A program made the position numbers and the translations under genes. The notes beneath the pieces were generated by a model that saw only the letters and a list, made by a program, of their open reading frames with translations, had not been told where the DNA came from and did no database searches. Below, piece after piece: positions 14,311 to 60,992 of a stretch of DNA of 64,000 nucleotides. The stretch comes from Methanospirillum hungatei JF-1 (GTDB lineage: Archaea > Halobacteriota > Methanomicrobia > Methanomicrobiales > Methanospirillaceae). Each line of letters starts with the position of its first letter. Position 1 is the stretch's first letter. The DNA lies in NCBI RefSeq assembly GCF_000013445.1, contig NC_007796.1, positions 2,268,936-2,332,935 on the forward strand, given 5' to 3'.

Positions 14311-16070
14311 GAGGCTGTTGCACAAACACAAAAAAAGCTTAATATAAATTATTAAAGCTTAATTATATATATTATTAAGATCAATATATTATATGTCTCA
14401 TCGCTATAACATGATTAGAGGATATGGTAATGAACAACAATTTTTACTCCCTGTCAATGCGATGGACTGGCTATCTGAAAATGATATTACTTATGGCATA
14501 TTAGAAATTCTTTCGATTCTCGATATTAGTCCATTTATTAATAAATATCGTGACGATGGTCGCGGTTCTGCCTTTTTTGATCCTCGTTCAATGCTTGGAA
14601 TAATAATTTATTCAATGATTCGTGGAGAAAAATCTAGCAGAAAAATTGAGATGTGCTGCCATTATGATATTGGATATCGGATCGTCGCCAATAATCTTAC
14701 ACCTGACCATACAACGATCTATCGTTTCAAGAAGAATAATTCAAAAGAAATCAAATCCCTTTTTAAACAATTATCTCAAATTATCGTAGAATCCGGGATA
14801 GCAAGAATCGGTGTCCTAGCCCTCGATGGATCAAAATTTGGCTGTAATGCCTCTTTATCAGCCAATAAAAAATTAAAATACCTTGAAGCAGAGCTAGGTC
14901 GGCTTTTTGATGAATCACAGGAAATTGATGAGTTAGAAAACGATGATATAAATATTCAGGATATGGAGATTAACCGACTACCTGAGCATCTTTCAACAAA
15001 AGAAAAACGAAAGGAAGTTCTTAATCGGGCTAAAGAGAAATTAATTGAACGACATGATATCGAATCTAAAAAACAAGAAGAAAAGATTCTGGACCGCGAA
15101 AAAGAAGAATTAGAATCGGGTAAAAAGAAACGAGGTAGAAAGCCTTTAGAGCCTAAAAAAGAGCCATCTTCAGATTCAAAAGTAAATCTCACTGATCCTG
15201 AAAGTCAGATAATGTCAACCACCAATGGCTGGATTCAAGGGTATAATGGGCAGATTATCGTTTCTGAAAATCAATTTATCCTCGCTGCAATGATATCAGA
15301 TGAGCAAAACGATAAAAAATTATTAATACCTATGCTAAATGAACTCGAAGACCTTTTTACGGGTATTCATCCATCAATTTCGCCTAATATACTACTATCT
15401 GATGCAGGTTATTTCTCATACCCGAATTCTTTAGCAGAATTGGATTATGGCATTCAACTCATCATCCCTCCTTCTAAAGAAAGAAAAATTCCAGAATATT
15501 CAGATAATGATGGGTATATCTCACGAATGGAAATGATATGTCGGGCGATTTGTATGGGAGAAATAATCACATTTCCGGAATTGCAAAGTATCGGGACGTT
15601 TGTTTGGCAATCTTTTATGAACAGAGAGAAACAAGCAACAACTCAGGAAATTTGTAAACGAGTTATGGAAGTACGTGTGAAATCCCCCACTGGTAGAGAG
15701 TTATATCGAAAACGAAAATACATGGTCGAACCAGTTTTTGGTAATATGAAACATAATATGAGGTTTAGGAGTTTCTCTCAAAAAGGGAAAGAGAATTGCG
15801 AGGGAGAATTCTTTTTAGCTGCATTAGTGCATAATATAAAAAAACTTATCAGATTTGAGGGTATAGTTAAAATTAAAGAATTTGCTACGAATATTATAAA
15901 ACCGTCAAGAGGTTCAGGTTTTTCCTATATTTTTGCAAACACAGTATGTAAAGTGGGAATTGATACATGCAGGTTCATACATCAATTAGTCTATTTTGGT
16001 TGATAGCTTAAGGGGTAGAGATCGATCATTTGTGATCCTGCATGATATTGATCATTGGTGCAACACCCTC
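14311..16070 (+). mobile_element. IS1182-type insertion sequence, complete, 1,760 bp
   Basis: Imperfect terminal inverted repeats: GAGGCTGTTGCACAAA at the left end and, read inward from the right, GAGGGTGTTGCACCAA. It is flanked by a 4-bp direct repeat TTTT (14307-14310 and 16071-16074). Removing the element and one TTTT rejoins the flanking kinase fragments in frame (Y-Q-I-K joined to L-T-D-K-S-G), giving a 1,040-codon gene including the stop. This fixes both ends. It carries a single transposase gene. The visibly higher A+T content than the flanking metabolic genes is typical of IS elements here. Confidence 0.93.
14393..16003 (+). CDS. IS1182-family DDE transposase
   Basis: A 536-residue transposase. 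The N-terminal DUF772-type helical domain includes RSMLGIIIYSMIRGEKSSRK and DHTTIYRFKKNN. Catalytic candidates are the Asp in VLALDGSKFGCNAS, the Asp in LLSDAGYFSY and the Glu in MVEPVFGNMKHNMRFR. A lysine/glutamate-rich coiled insertion of about 100 residues (about 180-270) separates the first Asp from the rest, a feature of this family. Length and frame look intact, so the element may still be active. The start ATG 14393 follows an AT-rich promoter-like stretch inside the left end. Transcription is opposite to the interrupted kinase. Confidence 0.92.
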   Translation: MSHRYNMIRGYGNEQQFLLPVNAMDWLSENDITYGILEILSILDISPFINKYRDDGRGSAFFDPRSMLGIIIYSMIRGEKSSRKIEMCCHYDIGYRIVANNLTPDHTTIYRFKKNNSKEIKSLFKQLSQIIVESGIARIGVLALDGSKFGCNASLSANKKLKYLEAELGRLFDESQEIDELENDDINIQDMEINRLPEHLSTKEKRKEVLNRAKEKLIERHDIESKKQEEKILDREKEELESGKKKRGRKPLEPKKEPSSDSKVNLTDPESQIMSTTNGWIQGYNGQIIVSENQFILAAMISDEQNDKKLLIPMLNELEDLFTGIHPSISPNILLSDAGYFSYPNSLAELDYGIQLIIPPSKERKIPEYSDNDGYISRMEMICRAICMGEIITFPELQSIGTFVWQSFMNREKQATTQEICKRVMEVRVKSPTGRELYRKRKYMVEPVFGNMKHNMRFRSFSQKGKENCEGEFFLAALVHNIKKLIRFEGIVKIKEFATNIIKPSRGSGFSYIFANTVCKVGIDTCRFIHQLVYFG

Positions 16071-27914: not shown

Positions 27915-28520
27915 TTAGAACTGAACATGGTAGTTTAAAAACTCACTCCAATTCCAAAGATGATCAGTAATACTTTCTAACATTGCTGGAGACTTGTGAC
28001 TACTTTTTACTTCGATAAAATTATGCACAAATTGAAAGATATTTAGCGCTGAAATGAATCTATTGAGTTTTTTTGAAAAAGAGGCAGTTTTCCTTCCAAA
28101 ACGGCTCAATCGTTGTCTGATTTTATTATTGTAGCCCTCAATGACTGAGGTAGAGATTGCTTTACTATCTGGATTTCCCATAATTTTCTCTCGAATGACA
28201 TAAACAAGTTTATTCTTCTCTTTTACTTTGATCACCTGACCATAATCCAAGCATGGCTCACAATATAATTCAGGTAAACAAATGCTATATTGGACGTTTC
28301 CATCAGTAAAAATCGATATTTTGTTTTCTGGCGTTGGAAGTTCCATTCGGTTAAAAAATCGAACTAACATATCTGCACAAGTATCAATATTTCTTTTTCC
28401 AGATTCAAATGCTAAAAATAATCCAGAATCCCTTTTAAAACAAGTATAGGACCAACAATCACCTAATTCTTCAGAGTCAGTTGTTAGGAGATTCTTGTTT
28501 TTTTTTGAACAAACTCCCAA
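27915..28520 (-). CDS. IS1-type element, second frame (InsB-like catalytic part)
   Basis: The catalytic portion of the transposase. Useful coding begins at the A9 run (K-K-N-K-N-L-L-T-T-D-S); the apparent TTG start at 28520 is only an artefact of the open frame. The second Asp is in SIFTDGNVQYSI and the Glu probably in STSVIEGYNNKIRQRLSRFG, followed by the basic R-F-G-R-K-T-A-S-F-S segment typical of IS1 transposases. It is expected to be made only as an InsAB fusion of about 320 residues by -1 frameshifting. Confidence 0.85.
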   Translation of the reverse strand: MGVCSKKNKNLLTTDSEELGDCWSYTCFKRDSGLFLAFESGKRNIDTCADMLVRFFNRMELPTPENKISIFTDGNVQYSICLPELYCEPCLDYGQVIKVKEKNKLVYVIREKIMGNPDSKAISTSVIEGYNNKIRQRLSRFGRKTASFSKKLNRFISALNIFQFVHNFIEVKSSHKSPAMLESITDHLWNWSEFLNYHVQF

Positions 28521-28900
28521 ATTTCATCCATCTCACAATCCCCCGCGGAAATGTCATGAATAAAATAATCGTTGAGTTTTTCAGCATGTTCACCGATTAA
28601 GTGATAATATCGAGATATAGTGTCGCGATGGTGTCCGGTAACTCGAGATACTCCTCGAATTGAAGTTTTTTCAGTCGAGTGTTTCGCAATTATGAGAACA
28701 GCAGTTCGTGGTAAACGAGAATCATACAGAGGAGTATTTTTAGTTTCAATAAAAAAACGTCGACAGTGATGGCAATAGTACTGTTGATTGCCTGCAGAAT
28801 TATGCCCATTTTTAGTAATATTCTTTCCATCTTCAATTTGAAAATAAGTACAATCCGGATTTTGACACGTAATCAATATAGGACCACGTTTTCCAACCAT
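28484..28900 (-). CDS. IS1-type element, first frame (InsA-like)
   Basis: 138 codons. The N-terminal zinc finger pairs C-Q-N-P-D-C with YYCHHCRRFF; an HTH follows (TSIRGVSRVTGHHRDTISRY). It ends with E-M-D-E-I-W-E-F-V-Q-K-K, holding the first catalytic Asp or Glu of the DDE core, just before a run of nine A on the coding strand (28498-28506). InsA alone is a DNA-binding repressor in bacterial IS1; whether that applies here is unknown. Slipping -1 on the A-run continues translation into the second frame. Confidence 0.85.
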   Translation of the reverse strand: MVGKRGPILITCQNPDCTYFQIEDGKNITKNGHNSAGNQQYYCHHCRRFFIETKNTPLYDSRLPRTAVLIIAKHSTEKTSIRGVSRVTGHHRDTISRYYHLIGEHAEKLNDYFIHDISAGDCEMDEIWEFVQKKTRIS

Positions 28901-52809: not shown

Positions 52810-54396
52810 ATGAGGTTCTTCAATACCGCCGGACCGGTGAACTGTGAGAAACATTACTGTCTCCCCCCTCTTACCCGGTTTGATCTGCCTGAAATACTCA
52901 CGCTCATCAGTCAGGAGAAGTACTTTGTCTTGCATGCACCCCGGCAGAGCGGGAAGACCTCATGTATGCTTGCCCTTCGGGACTATCTGAACCGTGAAGG
53001 CAGGTATGCTGCACTCTATATGAATGTAGAAACCGCCCAGACCGCCAGAAGTGATGTTTCGAGAGGTATTAAAGCAATAATAAGCGAATTTGCCTTTCAG
53101 GCAGACCTGACTATTCCGGATTCATCACTTCGGGATAAGATAAATCATTATATTGAGGTTTATGGTCCTGATGCAGCATTTAAAATGGTCCTATCTGATG
53201 TATGTAGGAGTGTATCTCTTCCAGTAGCCCTCTGTATAGATGAGATTGATGCCCTTGTGGGAGATACCCTGATCTCTGTTCTCCGTCAACTTCGATCAGG
53301 GTATTCTGAACGACCTGCACATTTCCCTTCCTCAATCATCCTCTGTGGAGTCCGTGATGTCCGTGACTACCGGATTCATTCGGATAAAGACAAGGCGATT
53401 ATCACCGGTGGAAGTGCATTTAACATCAAGGCAGAATCCTTATGGCTCGGAAATTTTACCGAAGAAGAGACTGGGATCCTTCTCCTTGAACACACGAAAG
53501 AGACAGGACAGGTTTTTGAAGAAGGAGCTCTTGCCGCTGTCTGGAATCTGACACGTGGCCAGCCCTGGCTTGTCAATGCCCTTGCATATGAGGTCTGTTT
53601 CAAAATAGAAGAGGGAAGGAACCGTTCCAATCCGATATCAGAGTCTCTTGTCATAGAGGCAAAAGAGCGGCTTATCCAGAGAAGGGAGACGCATCTTGAC
53701 CAGCTGGTGGATAAACTTCAGGAAGAGCGAGTCAGGAGAGTTATCGAACCAATACTCACCGGAGAGATGTTTGAAAAGAACTTCAGACCGGACGATATCT
53801 CGTATCTCGTCGATCTTGGTCTCATTATCCAGGAACAAGGTGGAGCTCTTGCGATTGCAAATCCGATATACCAGGAGATTATTCCCCGAGAACTCAGTTA
53901 TACTGCACAGTCAGGTATGGCCCTGAAATCTGTCTGGTATATCGGTGAAGACGGAAGAATCCGGGTGAATGATCTCCTTCTATCATTCCAACAATTCTTT
54001 CGTGAACACTCCGAAAGCTGGACCGATATCGCCCAGTATAAAGAGGCAGCTCCCCAGCTCCTCCTCCAGGCATTTTTACAGCGGATAATCAACGGAGGCG
54101 GACAGATAATACGGGAATATGGTCTCGGACGGGGAAGAACCGATCTCTTTATCCTCTGGCACCTTCCTGACGGAACGTATCAGCGGTTTGTGATAGAATG
54201 CAAGATGGTGTACGGCTCACGGGAGGTGACCATCAGTAAAGGGCTTGTTCAGGTGACAAAATATGCTGATCGATGCGGGGCAGAAGAGGTGTATCTGCTT
54301 ATCTTTGACCGGGATAAAAACAAGAGTTGGGATGAGAAGATCTTTACAGTAACAATTGAGCATCAGGGGAGAATGGTAGCAGTATTTGGGATGTGA
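52810..54396 (+). CDS. AAA-ATPase fused to a PD-(D/E)XK nuclease-like domain, copy 1
   Basis: 528 residues. The N-terminal AAA module has Walker A in HAPRQSGKTSCML (about 42-54) and Walker B in ALCIDEIDALVGD (about 140). A sensor region (LCGVRDVRDYRIHSDKDKAI) and a lid/winged region (AVWNLTRGQPWLVNALAYEV) follow. The C-terminal 100 residues carry a nuclease-like core GLGRGRTDLFILWH then F-V-I-E-C-K-M-V, matching the (G-R)-x-D ... E-x-K pattern. This AAA plus PD-(D/E)XK architecture is common and multi-copy in methanogens; the biological role is unknown, with links to mobile DNA or defence proposed. A near copy lies immediately downstream. Confidence 0.88.
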   Translation: MRFFNTAGPVNCEKHYCLPPLTRFDLPEILTLISQEKYFVLHAPRQSGKTSCMLALRDYLNREGRYAALYMNVETAQTARSDVSRGIKAIISEFAFQADLTIPDSSLRDKINHYIEVYGPDAAFKMVLSDVCRSVSLPVALCIDEIDALVGDTLISVLRQLRSGYSERPAHFPSSIILCGVRDVRDYRIHSDKDKAIITGGSAFNIKAESLWLGNFTEEETGILLLEHTKETGQVFEEGALAAVWNLTRGQPWLVNALAYEVCFKIEEGRNRSNPISESLVIEAKERLIQRRETHLDQLVDKLQEERVRRVIEPILTGEMFEKNFRPDDISYLVDLGLIIQEQGGALAIANPIYQEIIPRELSYTAQSGMALKSVWYIGEDGRIRVNDLLLSFQQFFREHSESWTDIAQYKEAAPQLLLQAFLQRIINGGGQIIREYGLGRGRTDLFILWHLPDGTYQRFVIECKMVYGSREVTISKGLVQVTKYADRCGAEEVYLLIFDRDKNKSWDEKIFTVTIEHQGRMVAVFGM

Positions 54397-54399: not shown

Positions 54400-54641
54400 G
54401 GGATGAAACTTTTTCAGTCTGAGAGATAATCAATGGTGATTTCGTAAAACATTGCAAGAAAGATATTTATTCTGATCTCAAGGACCTCATTGTCAAATAG
54501 CAGCACCATGCACAATCCAAATAGATGAAATCGTCATATATTCGGCGATTTTTTTATATTTTCAGCGAAATTGGCTTTTTCATAATTGTTTGCTCGTTTC
54601 ACGGAGAGGGATTTTCTATCATCAGGATCAATAGAGATACG

Positions 54642-56228
54642 ATGAGGTTCTTCAATACCGCCGGACCGGTGAACTGCCAGGATCATTACTGTCTGCCTCC
54701 TCTTACCCGGTTTGATCTCCCTGAAATTCTCACCCTCCTAAGCCAGAAGAAGTATTTTGTTCTCCATGCTCCACGGCAGAGCGGGAAGACCTCATGTCTG
54801 CTTGCCTTGCGGGAGTATCTCAATAATTCAGGTGAGTATCGTTCATTATATATCAATGTTGAAACGGCTCAGGCTGCTCGGGATGATGTAGAAAACGGGG
54901 TCCGTTCAATTATTGTTGAAATTAATAAAAGAATGGATCAAAGCCCGGTTTTTACAGGATTGGGTGTGGTTACTGCAGATTTATGGGATAATACCAATGC
55001 CTACTCAGTTCTTAATATTGTCCTGAGCAGACTTGCGTCAATTGACAATAAACCTCTGGTACTCCTCATTGATGAGATCGATGCTCTTGTAGGTGATACA
55101 TTAATTTCAGTGCTCAGACAGATTCGGTCAGGATATGATAGTCGGCCGGTTCATTTCCCTTCCTCAATCATCCTCTGTGGAGTCCGTGATGTCCGTGACT
55201 ACCGGATTCATTCGGATAAAGACAAGGCGATTATCACCGGTGGAAGTGCATTTAACATCAAGGCTGAATCCTTACGGCTCGGAAATTTTACCGAAGAAGA
55301 GACTGGGATCCTTCTCCTTGAACACACGAAAGAGACAGGACAGGTTTTTGAAGAAGGAGCTCTTGCCGCTGTCTGGAATCTGACACGTGGCCAGCCCTGG
55401 CTTGTCAATGCCCTTGCATATGAGGTCTGTTTCAAAATAGAAGAGGGAAGGAACCGTTCCAATCCGATATCAGAGTCTCTTGTCATAAAGGCAAAAGAGC
55501 GGCTTATCCAAAGAAGGGAGACGCATCTTGACCAGCTGGTGGATAAACTTCAGGAAGAGCGAGTCAGGAGAGTTATCGAACCAATACTCACCGGAGAGAT
55601 GTTTGAAAAGAACTTCAGACCGGACGATATCTCGTATCTCGTCGATCTTGGTCTCATTATCCAGGAACAAGGTGGAGCTCTTGCGATTGCAAATCCGATA
55701 TACCAGGAGATTATTCCCCGAGAACTCAGTTATACTGCACAGTCAGGTATGGCCCTGAAATCTGTCTGGTATATCGGTGAAGACGGAAGAATCCGGGTGA
55801 ATGATCTCCTTCTATCATTCCAACAATTCTTTCGTGAACACTCCGAAAGCTGGACCGATATCGCCCAGTATAAAGAGGCAGCTCCCCAGCTCCTCCTCCA
55901 GGCATTTTTACAGCGGATAATCAACGGAGGCGGACAGATAATACGGGAATATGGTCTCGGACGGGGAAGAACCGATCTCTTTATCCTCTGGCACCTTCCT
56001 GACGGAACGTATCAGCGGTTTGTGATAGAATGCAAGATGGTGCACGGCTCACGGGAGGTGACCATCAGTAAAGGGCTTGTTCAGGTGACAAAATATGCTG
56101 ATCGGTGCGGGGCAGAAGAGGTGTATCTGCTTATCTTTGACCGGGATAAAAACAAGAGTTGGGATGAGAAGATCTTTACAGAAACAATTGAGCATCAGGG
56201 GAGAATGGTAGCAGTATTTGGGATGTGA
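54642..56228 (+). CDS. AAA-ATPase fused to a PD-(D/E)XK nuclease-like domain, copy 2
   Basis: 528 residues from ATG 54642; the frame extends upstream to 54525, but copy 1 shows the true start (MRFFNTAGPVNC). Walker A and B are the same (HAPRQSGKTSCL; LLIDEIDALVGD), as is the C-terminal F-V-I-E-C-K-M-V motif. Residues about 70-145, between the Walker motifs, differ strongly from copy 1, while everything after about residue 170 is almost identical at DNA level. Differences in the shared tract include W-to-R, E-to-K, Y-to-H and V-to-E changes. Gap to copy 1 is 245 bp. Confidence 0.88.
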   Translation: MRFFNTAGPVNCQDHYCLPPLTRFDLPEILTLLSQKKYFVLHAPRQSGKTSCLLALREYLNNSGEYRSLYINVETAQAARDDVENGVRSIIVEINKRMDQSPVFTGLGVVTADLWDNTNAYSVLNIVLSRLASIDNKPLVLLIDEIDALVGDTLISVLRQIRSGYDSRPVHFPSSIILCGVRDVRDYRIHSDKDKAIITGGSAFNIKAESLRLGNFTEEETGILLLEHTKETGQVFEEGALAAVWNLTRGQPWLVNALAYEVCFKIEEGRNRSNPISESLVIKAKERLIQRRETHLDQLVDKLQEERVRRVIEPILTGEMFEKNFRPDDISYLVDLGLIIQEQGGALAIANPIYQEIIPRELSYTAQSGMALKSVWYIGEDGRIRVNDLLLSFQQFFREHSESWTDIAQYKEAAPQLLLQAFLQRIINGGGQIIREYGLGRGRTDLFILWHLPDGTYQRFVIECKMVHGSREVTISKGLVQVTKYADRCGAEEVYLLIFDRDKNKSWDEKIFTETIEHQGRMVAVFGM

Positions 56229-56231
56229 GCC
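55152..56231 (+). repeat. Near-identical 1.08-kb tract, copy 2
   Basis: Partner of 53320-54399. Same borders relative to the gene. Confidence 0.92.
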
Positions 56232-56905
56232 AGGAACGGCTCCTGATTCTGTGCCGAATTATATCTCTCCCAGATACTCTCTCAATGATTGTATCATGGA
56301 TTTATAGCAGTCAAAAGATGGTAAGCCGGTATTATCTCGTCATGCCTGTCATGATACACTGTTCTATGAGCTTGATGAGTGTTTGAAATCATCCGTACCG
56401 ATACGAAATTTCTGTTCCATGCAGCCCCGGTATTCTTATAATAACTTTTTTCTCTGTGAGCATGTCTCTTTTCATATAATCAAACCAGGATGAGATATGT
56501 TCCAGGATTACGCCATATTATGGAAATGAGATTATGCAAGGATGATGAAATACACCATTTACAAGCAACCATCCCCAAGTCATCTGTCCAGGGATCCTAT
56601 GGGGGGTGGTCACAGTGCCATTCGGCGAAAAGACGTTCCAATCCGGCCACACGTTCTCCAGTCGGACAGACCAGTACATGAACGGAGCCTCGGTCTTGGC
56701 CCCTGACTTCCATACGAGATCCCCAATGGGCGGAGTGGTCATTCTGGCAGAAGAGAATCAAACGTATGGGCTGTCAGGATTGCTTGTAATAGAGGCGGTA
56801 TATATCGACAATCATCAGAGCATTCTGTTCCATGAATACATACATGAACCCCGACAGGGTCTCTTCACCTACGGGTGTGATGATGTGCCCTCCCTGATCC
56901 CAGGG
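56229..56905. other. Stretch with possible gene remnants, no firm call
   Basis: A rightward frame (about 56545-56914, no normal start) reads P-G-I-L-W-G-V-V-T-V-P-F-G-E-K-T-F-Q and ends NHQSILFHEYIHEPRQGLFT before a stop at 56912-56914. It looks partly protein-like but has no recognised family, and a 74-codon antisense frame (56518-56742) is equally open. I treat both as unsupported; a decayed gene is possible. Confidence 0.35.
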
Positions 56906-56925
56906 TGTGCATAAAATAATGCACA
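56906..56925. repeat. Short inverted repeat TGTGCAT/ATGCACA
   Basis: TGTGCAT (56906-56912), a 6-base spacer AAAATA, then ATGCACA (56919-56925). The same TGTGCAT half-site recurs in the larger repeat at 56985-57075. Confidence 0.7.
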
Positions 56926-56984
56926 GGTACATCAGGCGTTTTTTAAAATTAAAGAGATAATAGAGTGTTAAAAAGAGTGATCAA

Positions 56985-57099
56985 GTACGGTGTGCATAAT
57001 TTTTATTTTCACATATGCACTCACAGATCCATCATCTGCCTGTTACGTGATCTCCCTGGATTATGCACACCGTACAAACCCTGTGAATAAAAGGGTTTG
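56985..57099. repeat. Strong 16-bp inverted repeat plus adjacent hairpin
   Basis: GTACGGTGTGCATAAT (56985-57000) and its exact reverse complement ATTATGCACACCGTAC (57060-57075) are 59 bp apart. Directly next to the right arm, CAAACCC (57075-57081) pairs with GGGTTTG (57093-57099). This could be a regulatory cruciform, a transposon-like end pair, or a binding array for the HTH protein encoded at 57584. No transposase lies between the arms. Confidence 0.75.
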
Positions 57100-57583
57100 A
57101 TTATTGAAAATAACCCCTGGTGAGGTTTTCAGGTGTTCCTTTTTCCGGCGAACACCTCGTGCACACATAGGCACACCTGCACACCGTCATGGATTGTTCC
57201 AATTTCAGTGGAGATTTTCTCGATGAATATATTGGCCCTCCCCATATATCCTTTTTTTGAAGATATTCAAAAGGACCCCACATGAATCTCTGATACTGTG
57301 GTGGTATTCTACCAGCTCTGGTGATACAATCTCTGTGAGGTCCCGTCCATATATCCGAACAGACCAAAGTCAGGTGACCTGAAGGTCCCAATCATCTCCG
57401 TATTGATCTTGGTCGTCTCCCGTGCCACGTCGATATGGTTTTGAAGGAGGATCAGGACTCCCACCCCCGATGCCACAGGTGATCCGGCAAGGATGACTAC
57501 ATCCACAAATAATCCATACATAGAACTACATTCACATACATTCAAATACACCCTTCAATCAACACTATATACAGAACATCCCC
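57100..57583. other. Stretch with leftward open frames of uncertain status
   Basis: Two overlapping leftward frames (57309-57551 and 57101-57391) could be parts of one frameshifted membrane protein: the first has a hydrophobic stretch VDVVILAGSPVASGVGVLIL and ends Y-M-D-G-T-S-Q-R-L; the second has Q-Y-Q-R-F-M-W-G-P-F-E-Y. I recognise no family, so no gene is called. The stretch near 57160-57185 is rich in GTGCAC/GCACAC words related to the inverted repeats just upstream. Confidence 0.35.
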
Positions 57584-57901
57584 ATGCCTCCCCGGAAAAA
57601 TCCTGAATCCGCTGCCAGATATACCGAAGCGAAAAAGACACCATACATTCTTGAACTAGCAAAGGAACGTGAATTCAGAAAGAACTTCGAACTTGAGAAG
57701 GGGAAATTTTTCAGAACTGACACCGTTGCAGAGATTCTGGACATCGAACCTGAAGTTATCCGGGATTTAATCAGGAAAGGAGAACTCTTTGCGATAAAAA
57801 TAGGGAAGTCATACCGGGTAACAGAAGCAGACCTTCAGGAGTTTCTTTTTCAAAGATACACCAGGAAAAGAAGCGGAGAACAGAGACGCGAAGAAGGGTA
57901 G
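57584..57901 (+). CDS. Excisionase-type HTH DNA-binding protein
   Basis: 105 residues. The C-terminal half is a MerR/excisionase-like helix-turn-helix: FFRTDTVAEILDIEPEVIRD LIRKGELFAIKIGKSYRVTE ADLQEFL. The N-terminal 45 residues are basic and helical, and the tail is Arg/Lys/Glu rich. Such proteins regulate transcription or guide excision of mobile elements; there is no integrase nearby. It sits between the inverted-repeat region (56906-57099) and the TPR gene, which makes those repeats candidate binding sites. Confidence 0.82.
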   Translation: MPPRKNPESAARYTEAKKTPYILELAKEREFRKNFELEKGKFFRTDTVAEILDIEPEVIRDLIRKGELFAIKIGKSYRVTEADLQEFLFQRYTRKRSGEQRREEG

Positions 57902-58037
57902 GCCTATTCCCGGTCTGACCAGAACCGATCCCGCTCCTCCTGTTCCTTCTTTTTTCGCTTCCTCTTTTGCTCCTCTTCCTCGTTCAGATGTAACCCAAGT
58001 GACTGATGAAGCCAGTATCCGAATATATCCATACACA

Positions 58038-60992
58038 TCACCAATACCCATCCATATACCCGACCGGAGTTTTCAGGGGTCTTCCTGGCACCCGGGGTTG
58101 TGCTGGCATCTCTTCTTCCTCTTCAGGAAATGCCCGCTTCCCAAACCTGACGATGATCTGTTCATACTCTTCATGGGCATCGTCATCATCAAGGGCAGCG
58201 AGGGCATCGCAGAGATTTCTCCGTGCAATAACCTCTCCGGGCTGACACCTGATTGCCTGCCTGAAATCAGATACCGCCCCCTCGAAATCACGCAGACCAA
58301 GTCTTGACAGGCCACGGTTATTCCAGGCTCCCCATTCATAAGGCATGAGTATAACAGCCTGATTCCCATGCACAACAGCCTCTTCATGCCGCCCCAGGTT
58401 GGATAAACACCAGCAGAGTGCAGAATGGGCAACACCGGATGAGGGATCCAGTTCAAGGGCTCGAAGGAGAACCGGCTCTGCCTCATCAAACCGACGGAGA
58501 TTATCTAGAACCAGGCCCTTCTCAGCAAGAAAAACAGGGTTGTCAGGATCGTTTTGGAGAAGTTGGTCATATACCGCAATCGCCTGTACATATCGTTCTT
58601 CGTTCTCTTCCAGATCGCCAAGCATGTGATATGCATCTGCCTGGTACCGAGAGACTATCGGAGAATCTGACTCTATATTGGTGAGCGTCGTACAGACATT
58701 TACAGCAAGCCTGACCACCCCATATCGTTTCAGACTGACCGCCCGTTCATGGAGCAGTTCTGCGTACCTCTCCGGAGTATGGCTTATCGTTTTCAGATCC
58801 TCGAGAGGACCCTGCAATCGGAGCATCTTCAGCCCTTCCTCCAGTAGGTCCTTCACCTCTCCATCGTATCCATACCGGCCGGCTGCAAGAGAGAGCTGGG
58901 AAAGCGCCTCCCCATACTGTTCCAGTTCAAATAACACTCTGGCAAAGGTAATCCGCAGCGATGAATCATCAGGATCCTGGCGAATCTCCTCTGCAAGCAT
59001 CCTGGCGGCCTGCCGGTAATCCCCGATAAATGCCCGAAGCTCTCCTTTCTCAGCCTGGAAGAACCGGGCAGCATACTCCGAAACCGATTCACACTCCTTA
59101 TCGCTCCCTGAGAGAATCCGGGCTGCTGTATGCAGATACCTGACCTCTGCCGTGTTTGGAAGGGAATTCTTACATTCAGAGAAGAGAATCGCGGCTTCTT
59201 GTGCTTCCGTAGCCAGGAGTAATAACCGACCATACATCAGGAGGTTTTTCTTCGAAGAGCCGCATATTCGGAAGTTCTCCCGCATCGCATAAAGACCGGT
59301 ACGAAAACTCCCCTCAAGCTGACAAGCCAGGGCACACAGGTAATAATCCATCGGACGTCCGGGATTCATCTGCATGATCCGGACAGCAGTAAGGGCTGCA
59401 TCGCGATATTCACCAGACCTGATAAGGCAGCGGATAAACACTTCAAGCAGAGTGCAGTCAGATGACAACGCATCCTTTCGTGAACTCAGTTCAAAATATG
59501 CATCACGGTATCGTTCCTGTTCAAGAAGCGTCCTGACATACATATTCAGTGCGGGCCGGGAATCAGGACTCTTCGTGAGAACATCCTGTGTGATTATCTC
59601 AGCATCATGCAGGCAACCGACCGACCTGAATGCAATGGCACGGATCAGACAGAAATCCTGCTCTTCCGAATCTGCAAACCGTTCGGATATGAGAACGGCA
59701 TCTGTCCCCCGGTTCGCCATAATGTAACAGAAACAGAGAAAAACCAGATACTCCGGAGCCCCGCTTGCATGAGCAAGGACCTCAAAGGGTGGTATTGCAG
59801 CATCCATGCCATCGGTCATGAATAATTCAAGGGCCAGAGACTCCGGTGTCTCTTCTGACGGGGGCTTGAAATAACCGGCAGATTTCATGTGAAGCAGGGA
59901 AAACATCATATTCGTCCGATCCCTCGCTGCTGCGGTTATCAGAACCCTGATGGCCTCCCTGATCTTGCCTGATGAATACAGGGCCGATGCTTTCAGATAT
60001 ATCGCTTTCCATGCATCGCTCGCCTTTTCACCCGTCTCTGCCAGTCTGATCAGATCATCATACCGGCCGGTGAAATATAACGATGAAAGGTAGGGAATGA
60101 AGAGATCCATGTCGTCCGGAGATGATTTTTGTGCAGATTCGAGAAAAACTTCAGCTTCTTCATATCTGCCTGATTTCAGGAGCTCTTCAGCCCTGAACAC
60201 GGGAGCGGCCTCTGGGTGGGGCGGTGCATAAAAGCCAGAGATATCCCGCCTGATCACAAGAGCCTCATCCTCTCTTCCACATTCGGTCAGGAGATGAGCA
60301 AGATCAACTTTTGACTGCATATCCTGGGGCTGGTCCTCGCATGAAGCCCGAAGAAAGGTCTCTGCAGCACTGATATCACCAGATCTCCATGCTAATATCC
60401 CTTTTACATAGGGGACCAGGGGCATTTTATCTCCCTCCTCTCCAACGGCGGCCATGATCTCCGCGGCAGCAGACATCTCCCCCGTATGAATAAGAGCGAG
60501 AGCTTTGAGTGCATGAATTGTCGCCATAAATCCGGTGACATCAGGGGTGTCACCCAGCTGGGATTGTATCCCGTCACAATATTCAATGGCCAGATCCGGG
60601 TTTCCGGTGAATATATGGCAGATACTGATGAAGAGTTTTCGAATTCCGGCAAGACCATTGGACATAAATTCATAGTGCTGAAGAACAGAGAGAGCACTAT
60701 GATAGTACCCCTGGAGCATGAGATTTCTGCCCAGCTCATCCCTGAACTTCTCTTCAAAGGGATTCTCCCGGTAGATCTGATATAATTGCCTTAATGCCTC
60801 ATCCGGACGTTTCAGGTACGAAAGAACGATAGATTTCAGGAAGAGGAGGTACAGATTACCCTTCCAGACAGACAGCCCCATGTCAACCTGAGTAAGGGCC
60901 TGGTCATATTCCTCCGCATCAAGGAGAGCAGTAACCCGGGTGATCAGAAAATCAAACCAACTGCGTCCTTCCTGTTCAGGTATATCTTCCAT
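58038..60992 (-). CDS. Large TPR-repeat protein
   Basis: 984 residues built almost wholly of tetratricopeptide-like helix pairs, without signal peptide or membrane helices. Clear units include TALLDAEEYDQALTQVDMGL at the N-terminus, A-E-E-L-L-K-S-G-R-Y-E-E-A-E in the middle, and canonical ones near the C-terminus (YDQLLQNDPDNPVFLAEKGL; RFDEAEPVLLRALELDPSSG; HEEAVVHGNQAVILMPYEWG). It ends with an acidic stretch FPEEEEEMPAQP. Likely a scaffold. The start is ATG 60990-60992 with a strong ribosome site GGAGGAAGGA. A promoter-like TATA region lies at 61023-61040. Confidence 0.88.
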   Translation of the reverse strand: MEDIPEQEGRSWFDFLITRVTALLDAEEYDQALTQVDMGLSVWKGNLYLLFLKSIVLSYLKRPDEALRQLYQIYRENPFEEKFRDELGRNLMLQGYYHSALSVLQHYEFMSNGLAGIRKLFISICHIFTGNPDLAIEYCDGIQSQLGDTPDVTGFMATIHALKALALIHTGEMSAAAEIMAAVGEEGDKMPLVPYVKGILAWRSGDISAAETFLRASCEDQPQDMQSKVDLAHLLTECGREDEALVIRRDISGFYAPPHPEAAPVFRAEELLKSGRYEEAEVFLESAQKSSPDDMDLFIPYLSSLYFTGRYDDLIRLAETGEKASDAWKAIYLKASALYSSGKIREAIRVLITAAARDRTNMMFSLLHMKSAGYFKPPSEETPESLALELFMTDGMDAAIPPFEVLAHASGAPEYLVFLCFCYIMANRGTDAVLISERFADSEEQDFCLIRAIAFRSVGCLHDAEIITQDVLTKSPDSRPALNMYVRTLLEQERYRDAYFELSSRKDALSSDCTLLEVFIRCLIRSGEYRDAALTAVRIMQMNPGRPMDYYLCALACQLEGSFRTGLYAMRENFRICGSSKKNLLMYGRLLLLATEAQEAAILFSECKNSLPNTAEVRYLHTAARILSGSDKECESVSEYAARFFQAEKGELRAFIGDYRQAARMLAEEIRQDPDDSSLRITFARVLFELEQYGEALSQLSLAAGRYGYDGEVKDLLEEGLKMLRLQGPLEDLKTISHTPERYAELLHERAVSLKRYGVVRLAVNVCTTLTNIESDSPIVSRYQADAYHMLGDLEENEERYVQAIAVYDQLLQNDPDNPVFLAEKGLVLDNLRRFDEAEPVLLRALELDPSSGVAHSALCWCLSNLGRHEEAVVHGNQAVILMPYEWGAWNNRGLSRLGLRDFEGAVSDFRQAIRCQPGEVIARRNLCDALAALDDDDAHEEYEQIIVRFGKRAFPEEEEEMPAQPRVPGRPLKTPVGYMDGYW

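Follow-up and report, generated by a model that had tools for sequence, protein, structure and literature searches.

A probable orphan copy of an in-gene, iteron-type origin in the chromosome of Methanospirillum hungatei JF-1

A cluster of short repeats (here called the block) was identified in the window, i.e., the whole 64-kb stretch of the Methanospirillum hungatei JF-1 chromosome analyzed here (NC_007796.1; 2,268,936 to 2,332,935). The block is almost certainly homologous to a repeat array located in the coding linker of a replicase (Rep) gene of the same genome, and it is probably an orphan copy, without a replicase, of an iteron-type origin that normally resides inside the initiator gene. 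The Rep gene seems to contain an origin of its own, orphan copies of which are scattered in the chromosome. The features of the block and its surroundings are listed in Table 1.

Table 1. Coordinates of the array, its elements, and related features (window positions unless a locus is given)
Feature	Position	Strand	Remarks
Orphan iteron array (probable)	56876..57208	-	Homologous to the Rep-gene coding linker (1.593-1.596 Mb); colinear local alignment
First outer cluster	57161..57183	-	In Rep orientation; GCACA cores (three) at 57179, 57171, and 57161
Inner site 1 (16-bp inverted repeat, right arm)	57060..57075	-	Core at 57065
Inner site 2 (16-bp inverted repeat, left arm)	56985..57000	+	Core at 56991
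Second outer cluster	56884..56925	.	Cores at 56921, 56906 (20-bp palindrome), and 56884
AT-rich stretch	56930..57010	.	72% A+T versus 56% in the window
Asparaginase gene remnant	57289..57505	-	The sister species has an intact gene next to the block; context, outside the array
Excisionase-like HTH gene	57584..57901	+	Neighbor; action on the array without support
Inverted triple repeat in plasmid rep genes	L187:1711-2048, L189:2028-2365		

An earlier note on this DNA had described a group of repeats here, and these were all recovered. The arms of a 16-bp inverted repeat are exact and separated by a 59-bp spacer, and, as read from the sequence, a 20-bp palindrome, TGTGCATAAAATAATGCACA, is present at 56906 to 56925 and a 7-bp hairpin is formed by GTGCATA (56992 to 56998) and TATGCAC (57014 to 57020). 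A GTGCAC-rich stretch, GTGCACACATAGGCACACCTGCACACC, which is also rich in GCACAC, is found at about 57160 to 57185. The 16-bp inverted repeat is the inner site pair of the array, the two sites being mutually inverted and 74 bp apart, and the cores in the first outer cluster are 8 and 10 bp apart, the sister species being identical there. The density of the cluster exceeds that expected by chance: TGTGC or GCACA occurs eight times in 330 bp of the block and at most four times in other 330-bp stretches of the window, and five of the eight GGTGTGC or GCACACC sites of the window fall in the block. When the 3,544,738-bp genome was searched for the 16-mer, an exact copy was found only at the block, and a single copy with one mismatch was located inside the Rep ORF at 1.595 Mb. 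The block DNA is single copy in the genome apart from a weak match to the replicase linker, which excludes both a terminator and a dispersed repeat. Rfam gave no matches and no tRNA was identified in the 64-kb window.

A blastn comparison of 56230 to 57600 with the Rep loci yielded three short matches on one diagonal. The reverse complement of the block aligned over ~330 bp with the linker of the Rep gene at 1.593-1.596 Mb (the cognate gene), with a score of 126, while 500 dinucleotide shuffles gave 27.5 ± 3.7 (maximum, 44) and 500 real pieces of the window gave at most 56. The alignments of the block with the five other Rep genes of the genome were no better than those with shuffles. In Rep orientation, the sites of the block are spaced by 8, 10, 96, 74, 70, 15, and 22 bp and those of the cognate linker by 8, 10, 96, 73, 71, and then 34 or 37 bp; seven of the eight sites agree in order, orientation, and spacing (within 1 bp). 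With the linker of the M. stamsii Rep gene L095 as a layout template, both the window block and its counterpart in the sister species fitted at eight of eight sites and the cognate gene at seven of eight, compared with at most five in 20,000 random placements and at most two in other segments of the window; this template tests the layout within one broad unit class, because its own unit, AATGTGCA, also contains TGTGC. Relative to the same template, the window copy is missing roughly two sites per side. No Rep domains were detected in the 64-kb window by tblastn, and the linker DNA alone is recognizable there. The block therefore shows colinear homology to a Rep-linker array at a site that has no Rep gene, and the proposals of the earlier note that it is an origin-like site and the site of a lost element both gain support, because it is colinear with a mobile-element replicase linker that bears iterons.

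The Rep family of this genome comprises six related genes and one fragment. The product of about 1,060 to 1,080 residues has, in order, a primase-like domain, a zinc-binding motif, a helicase, an HTH region, a disordered linker, and a C-terminal Zn ribbon with conserved cysteines. The predicted N-terminal fold was nearest to those of Prim-Pol, the LigD polymerase domain, and archaeal primase (best E value, 5e-4; TM score, ~0.4), the 50 solved structures listed as nearest to the helicase model were all MCM entries, and linker residues 817 to 948 were predicted to be disordered (pLDDT under 50). Pfam, PHROGs, and NCBIfam provided no usable name for Rep, and neither did viral contigs; the primase domain also had matches in a Bacteroides phage, to a protein that bears the name DNA polymerase, and in a phage record that lacks annotation. 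Relatives of Rep were found in 44 of the 61 genomes searched, and the named relatives in the genome collection are from Methanospirillum and other Methanomicrobiales.

The order primase, helicase, HTH, and Zn finger has been described for arCOG07809, which occurs in Methanomicrobiales, and elements with this protein were proposed to be integrated satellite viruses, an integrase or integration site being given for only some of them (Makarova et al. 2014; PMC4158269). The parent Rep gene encodes a single protein with primase, helicase, HTH, and Zn finger in the same domain order and is found in the same host order, and on the basis of this architecture it is predicted to be the replicase of an arCOG07809-type mobile element. 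However, the arCOG07809 helicase was assigned to superfamily I (PMC4158269), whereas the present model is nearest to MCM, and arCOG07809 elements carry a rep gene, whereas the window block is without any. A small gene upstream of Rep may encode the HJR-type nuclease described for these elements. The word "iteron" is absent from the main text of PMC4158269, and its arCOG07809 section describes no origin. In the open literature, with few subscription journals covered, we found no account of how arCOG07809-type elements start replication.

To the 80 Rep loci retained from 156 in a scan of named genomes, the six of this genome were added, giving 86 linkers; 10 were dropped because the Zn-finger end was not found, and 76 were counted, these loci being phylogenetically nonindependent. 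Scored for inverted 8-mers, 45 of the 76 linkers exceeded all 200 shuffles, 48 were reached by at most one shuffle, and 57 exceeded every control piece of the same length from their own gene. The 28 linkers reached by at least 2 of 200 shuffles include some that were clipped by the linker-end rule, and the repeat excess was absent from the Rep linkers of L066, L079, and L084. By inverted 8-mers alone, the cognate linker was not significant (64 of 200 shuffles reached it; 67 of 200 for the L041-type linker); with direct repeats included, the values were 0.015 for the cognate and 0.005 for the L041-type linker. The top units were of 55 different kinds among the 76 linkers. A unit was common to 13 of 16 linker pairs at 90 to 100% Rep identity versus 30 of 952 pairs at 40 to 50%, and in the bins between, with rising Rep identity, it was shared in 25 of 517, 13 of 170, 17 of 70, and 15 of 32 pairs. 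Many Rep genes of the order thus carry a gene-specific array of a short unit, in both orientations, in the disordered linker. One short unit recurs beyond chance both in the block and, with the exceptions given above, in the gene family; the array lies inside the initiator coding sequence in the parent Rep genes but not in the window.

The layout of the arrays was compared in the 43 linkers in which the unit is present at least four times. Their 409 sites fall in two zones, and every linker has both orientations. Gaps between adjacent sites are mostly 8 to 11 bp or 67 to 89 bp (94 gaps), and only 2 are 53 to 66 bp. An inverted pair 66 to 83 bp apart, with sites 66 to 98 bp beyond it on both sides, was present in 29 of the 43 linkers (null mean, 6.8; maximum, 15). 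After removal of relatives with more than 70% identity, 11 of the remaining 21 linkers had it (null mean, 2.7; maximum, 8). The recurring layout is an outer cluster, ~70 to 90 bp, an inner site, ~75 bp, an inverted inner site, ~70 to 90 bp, and another outer cluster.

A counterpart of the block, 89% identical, was identified in a sister species of the same genus (genome G008). There the left 16-bp arm is kept (16/16), the right arm has two changes, both outside the core, and neither the 20-bp palindrome nor the 7-bp hairpin is intact, indicating that the conserved unit is the short core and not the perfect palindromes. The site columns of the two orphans are identical at 40 of 40 positions versus 87.3% elsewhere (P = 0.006); in a distant pair the figures are 39 of 40 versus 59%, inflated by alignment anchoring. 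At one inner site, GGTGTGCCAAAT occurs in both the Rep gene and the orphan of the sister species, and the perfect match between the two 16-bp arms in the window is therefore probably in part a later change. A Rep-linker reading frame of 46 residues is still recognizable in the sister-species copy (37% identity; E value, 3e-5). That copy is flanked by an intact asparaginase gene and, on the other side, by two ORFs interpreted as a hydrolase gene that has been split. The window no longer has the hydrolase gene and has only a reduced asparaginase gene, but its block is whole.

Targeted searches, rather than a census, yielded the further orphans: 61 genomes were searched with the window block, and 12 genomes each with the L035 array, the L042-type linker, and the L044-type linker. 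Five orphans of four unit types were found in two Methanospirillum genomes, in addition to the G008 counterpart of the window block, and each of the five has a rep-linked relative of its own type in the same genome. Two of them, L034 (2.624 Mb) and L035 (2.980 Mb), align colinearly with the linker of a Rep gene other than the one cognate to the window block, with scores of 162 and 207 (shuffle maximum, 55), and have in common the spacings 8, 10, 11, 14, 70, 75, 71, 14, 11, and 10 bp; their GTGCATA columns are identical at 69 of 70 positions versus 450 of 546 elsewhere. A GTGAAGCA-type array at 0.961 Mb (L206:995-1621) adjoins tRNA-Ser(TGA), and so does a GCAGAAAA-type array with nine sites in genome G001 (L201:9573-9883; scores of 121 and 159 in alignments to Rep linkers, with a shuffle maximum of 47). 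The two tRNA-Ser(TGA) sites are probably the same neighborhood, since a similar 121-residue ORF is found near both.

Arrays inside a replication gene were also seen in two free Methanothermobacter-type plasmids, pMTBMA4 and pMTB1, which we take to be pME2001-like plasmids. The helicase part of their Rep is distantly related (about 22% identity), and no significant match to the primase domain was found in it. Behind the helicase part, their rep genes contain the 10-bp unit GGGAAACACC three times, in both orientations. This triple repeat may be an origin within the gene, although these plasmids differ from the Rep elements in being free and in having three sites only. Their plasmid family also serves as a source of vectors, the laboratory shuttle vector pMVS having the pME2001 replicon in Methanothermobacter (PMC8609365). 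The origin of phage lambda lies inside gene O (PMC4488673), so that lambda, like the Rep genes, has an iteron array with an AT-rich part inside the initiator coding sequence. However, lambda has four direct 19-bp iterons and the Rep array has short units in two-fold symmetry over ~300 bp, and the lambda initiator is without primase or helicase, whereas Rep is fused to both; the proteins are unrelated. The ORF904 protein of pRN1 combines prim-pol and helicase, as does Rep (PMC4234260), but belongs to an arCOG other than arCOG07809 (PMC4158269). The pRN1 origin seems to be outside the gene, because a region downstream of the operon is reported to be needed (PMC4234260).

By analogy with lambda, the array in the Rep linker is quite likely to be a replication origin. 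The HTH domain just before the linker would bind the array unit, and Rep would assemble over the ~300-bp dyad array in its own gene, open the AT-rich part, and load its own MCM-like helicase and primase, in parallel to the action of lambda O on the origin within gene O. The AT-rich stretch of the block is, by analogy only, a candidate unwinding region. In the window, the likeliest history is that the rest of the element was lost and the array with its eight sites was kept; the orphan would give the Rep encoded at 1.59 Mb another place to bind. We lean toward the view that the window copy is still bound by the Rep of this intact cognate gene; that it has a selected role is rather doubtful.

We give an even chance to the block being a pure relic of a decayed rep gene or element with no present function. 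Decay of the neighboring genes, persistence of the 46-residue Rep-linker frame in the sister species, and the shortage of about two template sites per side are consistent with a relic, but the complete conservation of the cores between species (40/40 versus 87.3%), the same contrast between L034 and L035 (69/70 versus 450/546), the wholeness of the block although both flanking genes are gutted, and the recognizable linker DNA where the Rep domains on both sides are gone argue against one. It is possible, if fairly unlikely, that the orphan is kept as a decoy that titrates the cognate Rep or as a satellite origin replicated by Rep in trans. This would suit the finding that all five orphans, which represent four unit types, are accompanied in the same genome by a rep-linked relative of their type, as well as the site conservation in both orphan pairs, and a decoy role is worth considering because extra copies of the lambda origin arrested lambda (PMC4488673); however, the site conservation comes from a modest sample, and a relic accounts for the presence of the orphans equally well. 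The broader proposition that Methanospirillum chromosomes keep orphan origins of several types as selected decoys or satellite origins is unlikely. Each orphan would then be bound by the Rep of its own type and would either titrate it, to the detriment of a cognate element as with surplus lambda origins, or be fired by it; if this held, the tRNA-Ser(TGA) neighborhood would be a place for swapping GTGAAGCA-type and GCAGAAAA-type origins. The array could also be a Rep-binding site with another role, in partition (centromere-like), packaging, or autoregulation. Phased dyad arrays are found at partition sites too, the array is near the 3' end of rep, and a partition or regulatory site would yield much of the same evidence, but the unit covaries with a primase-plus-helicase protein, the in-gene position fits an origin best, and partition genes were not identified among the ORFs named beside the six Rep genes. 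We therefore regard such a role as quite improbable.

Two further readings center on the inverted repeat and its neighbor. The earlier note had taken the sites as a possible operator array for the protein encoded by the nearby HTH gene, and its description of this protein as excisionase-like holds (HTH_17, TIGR01764). Besides this assignment, the operator reading has in its favor that the gene lies near the block in this genome. However, the sites are accounted for by the Rep-linker homology, the 3.3-kb locus of a 71%-identical paralogue (one examined) contains neither TGTGCAT nor GGTGTGC, so that the block does not recur near a homologous HTH gene, and in the sister species ~1.3 kb, including the 380-codon asparaginase gene, separates the block from the HTH gene. 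An operator is thus very improbable. Even less credence attaches to a 91-bp miniature inverted-repeat transposon with the 16-bp arms as its ends: the exact repeat and short interior would fit, but there is a single genomic copy instead of several, the sites beyond the 91 bp share the same layout, and one arm is unconserved in the sister species. The HTH gene and a convergent TPR gene (window, 57584 to 60992) form a duplicated pair, the second copy of which is at 0.865 Mb (L038), where the paralogue likewise adjoins a convergent TPR gene.

If the in-gene origin is true, origins could be read from the gene, which would provide testable origins for many uncultured elements. The unit and the initiator change together and the layout recurs, offering a natural data set on initiator-site coevolution. 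The Rep system is also a possible vector replicon for Methanomicrobiales, a group with few genetic tools, and the orphan origins pose the question of host use against elements.

Several other repeated genes were observed around the Rep loci and in the window. A 167-residue protein, 72 to 86% identical between loci, adjoins three of the six Rep genes and the fragment, and it is followed by a secreted protein (37 to 51%) at L051:4065-5352, L053:6078-7431, L055:5624-6885, and L056:2531-3421; the pair had no matches in Pfam, PHROGs, or the PDB. The 167-residue protein was considered as the sheath protein and rejected, the sheath protein being one of 40.6 kDa (PMC6242892; see also PMC10593813). Directly 3' of the cognate Rep operon are three tandem ORFs of ~300 residues that are 96 to 98% identical (L051:10211-13337). 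A 536-residue ORF at 14393 to 16000 of the window, presumably an insertion sequence, has copies at L052, L054, and L056 (99.8 to 100% identical). The L041-type Rep gene appears to be split by an insertion sequence, and the pair of ORFs interrupting it (L052:10330-11312) is 99.5 to 100% identical to two ORFs at 27918 to 28900 of the window. The window also contains tandem ATPase genes (52810 to 54396 and 54525 to 56228) that are 86% identical and have a weak PD-(D/E)XK match.
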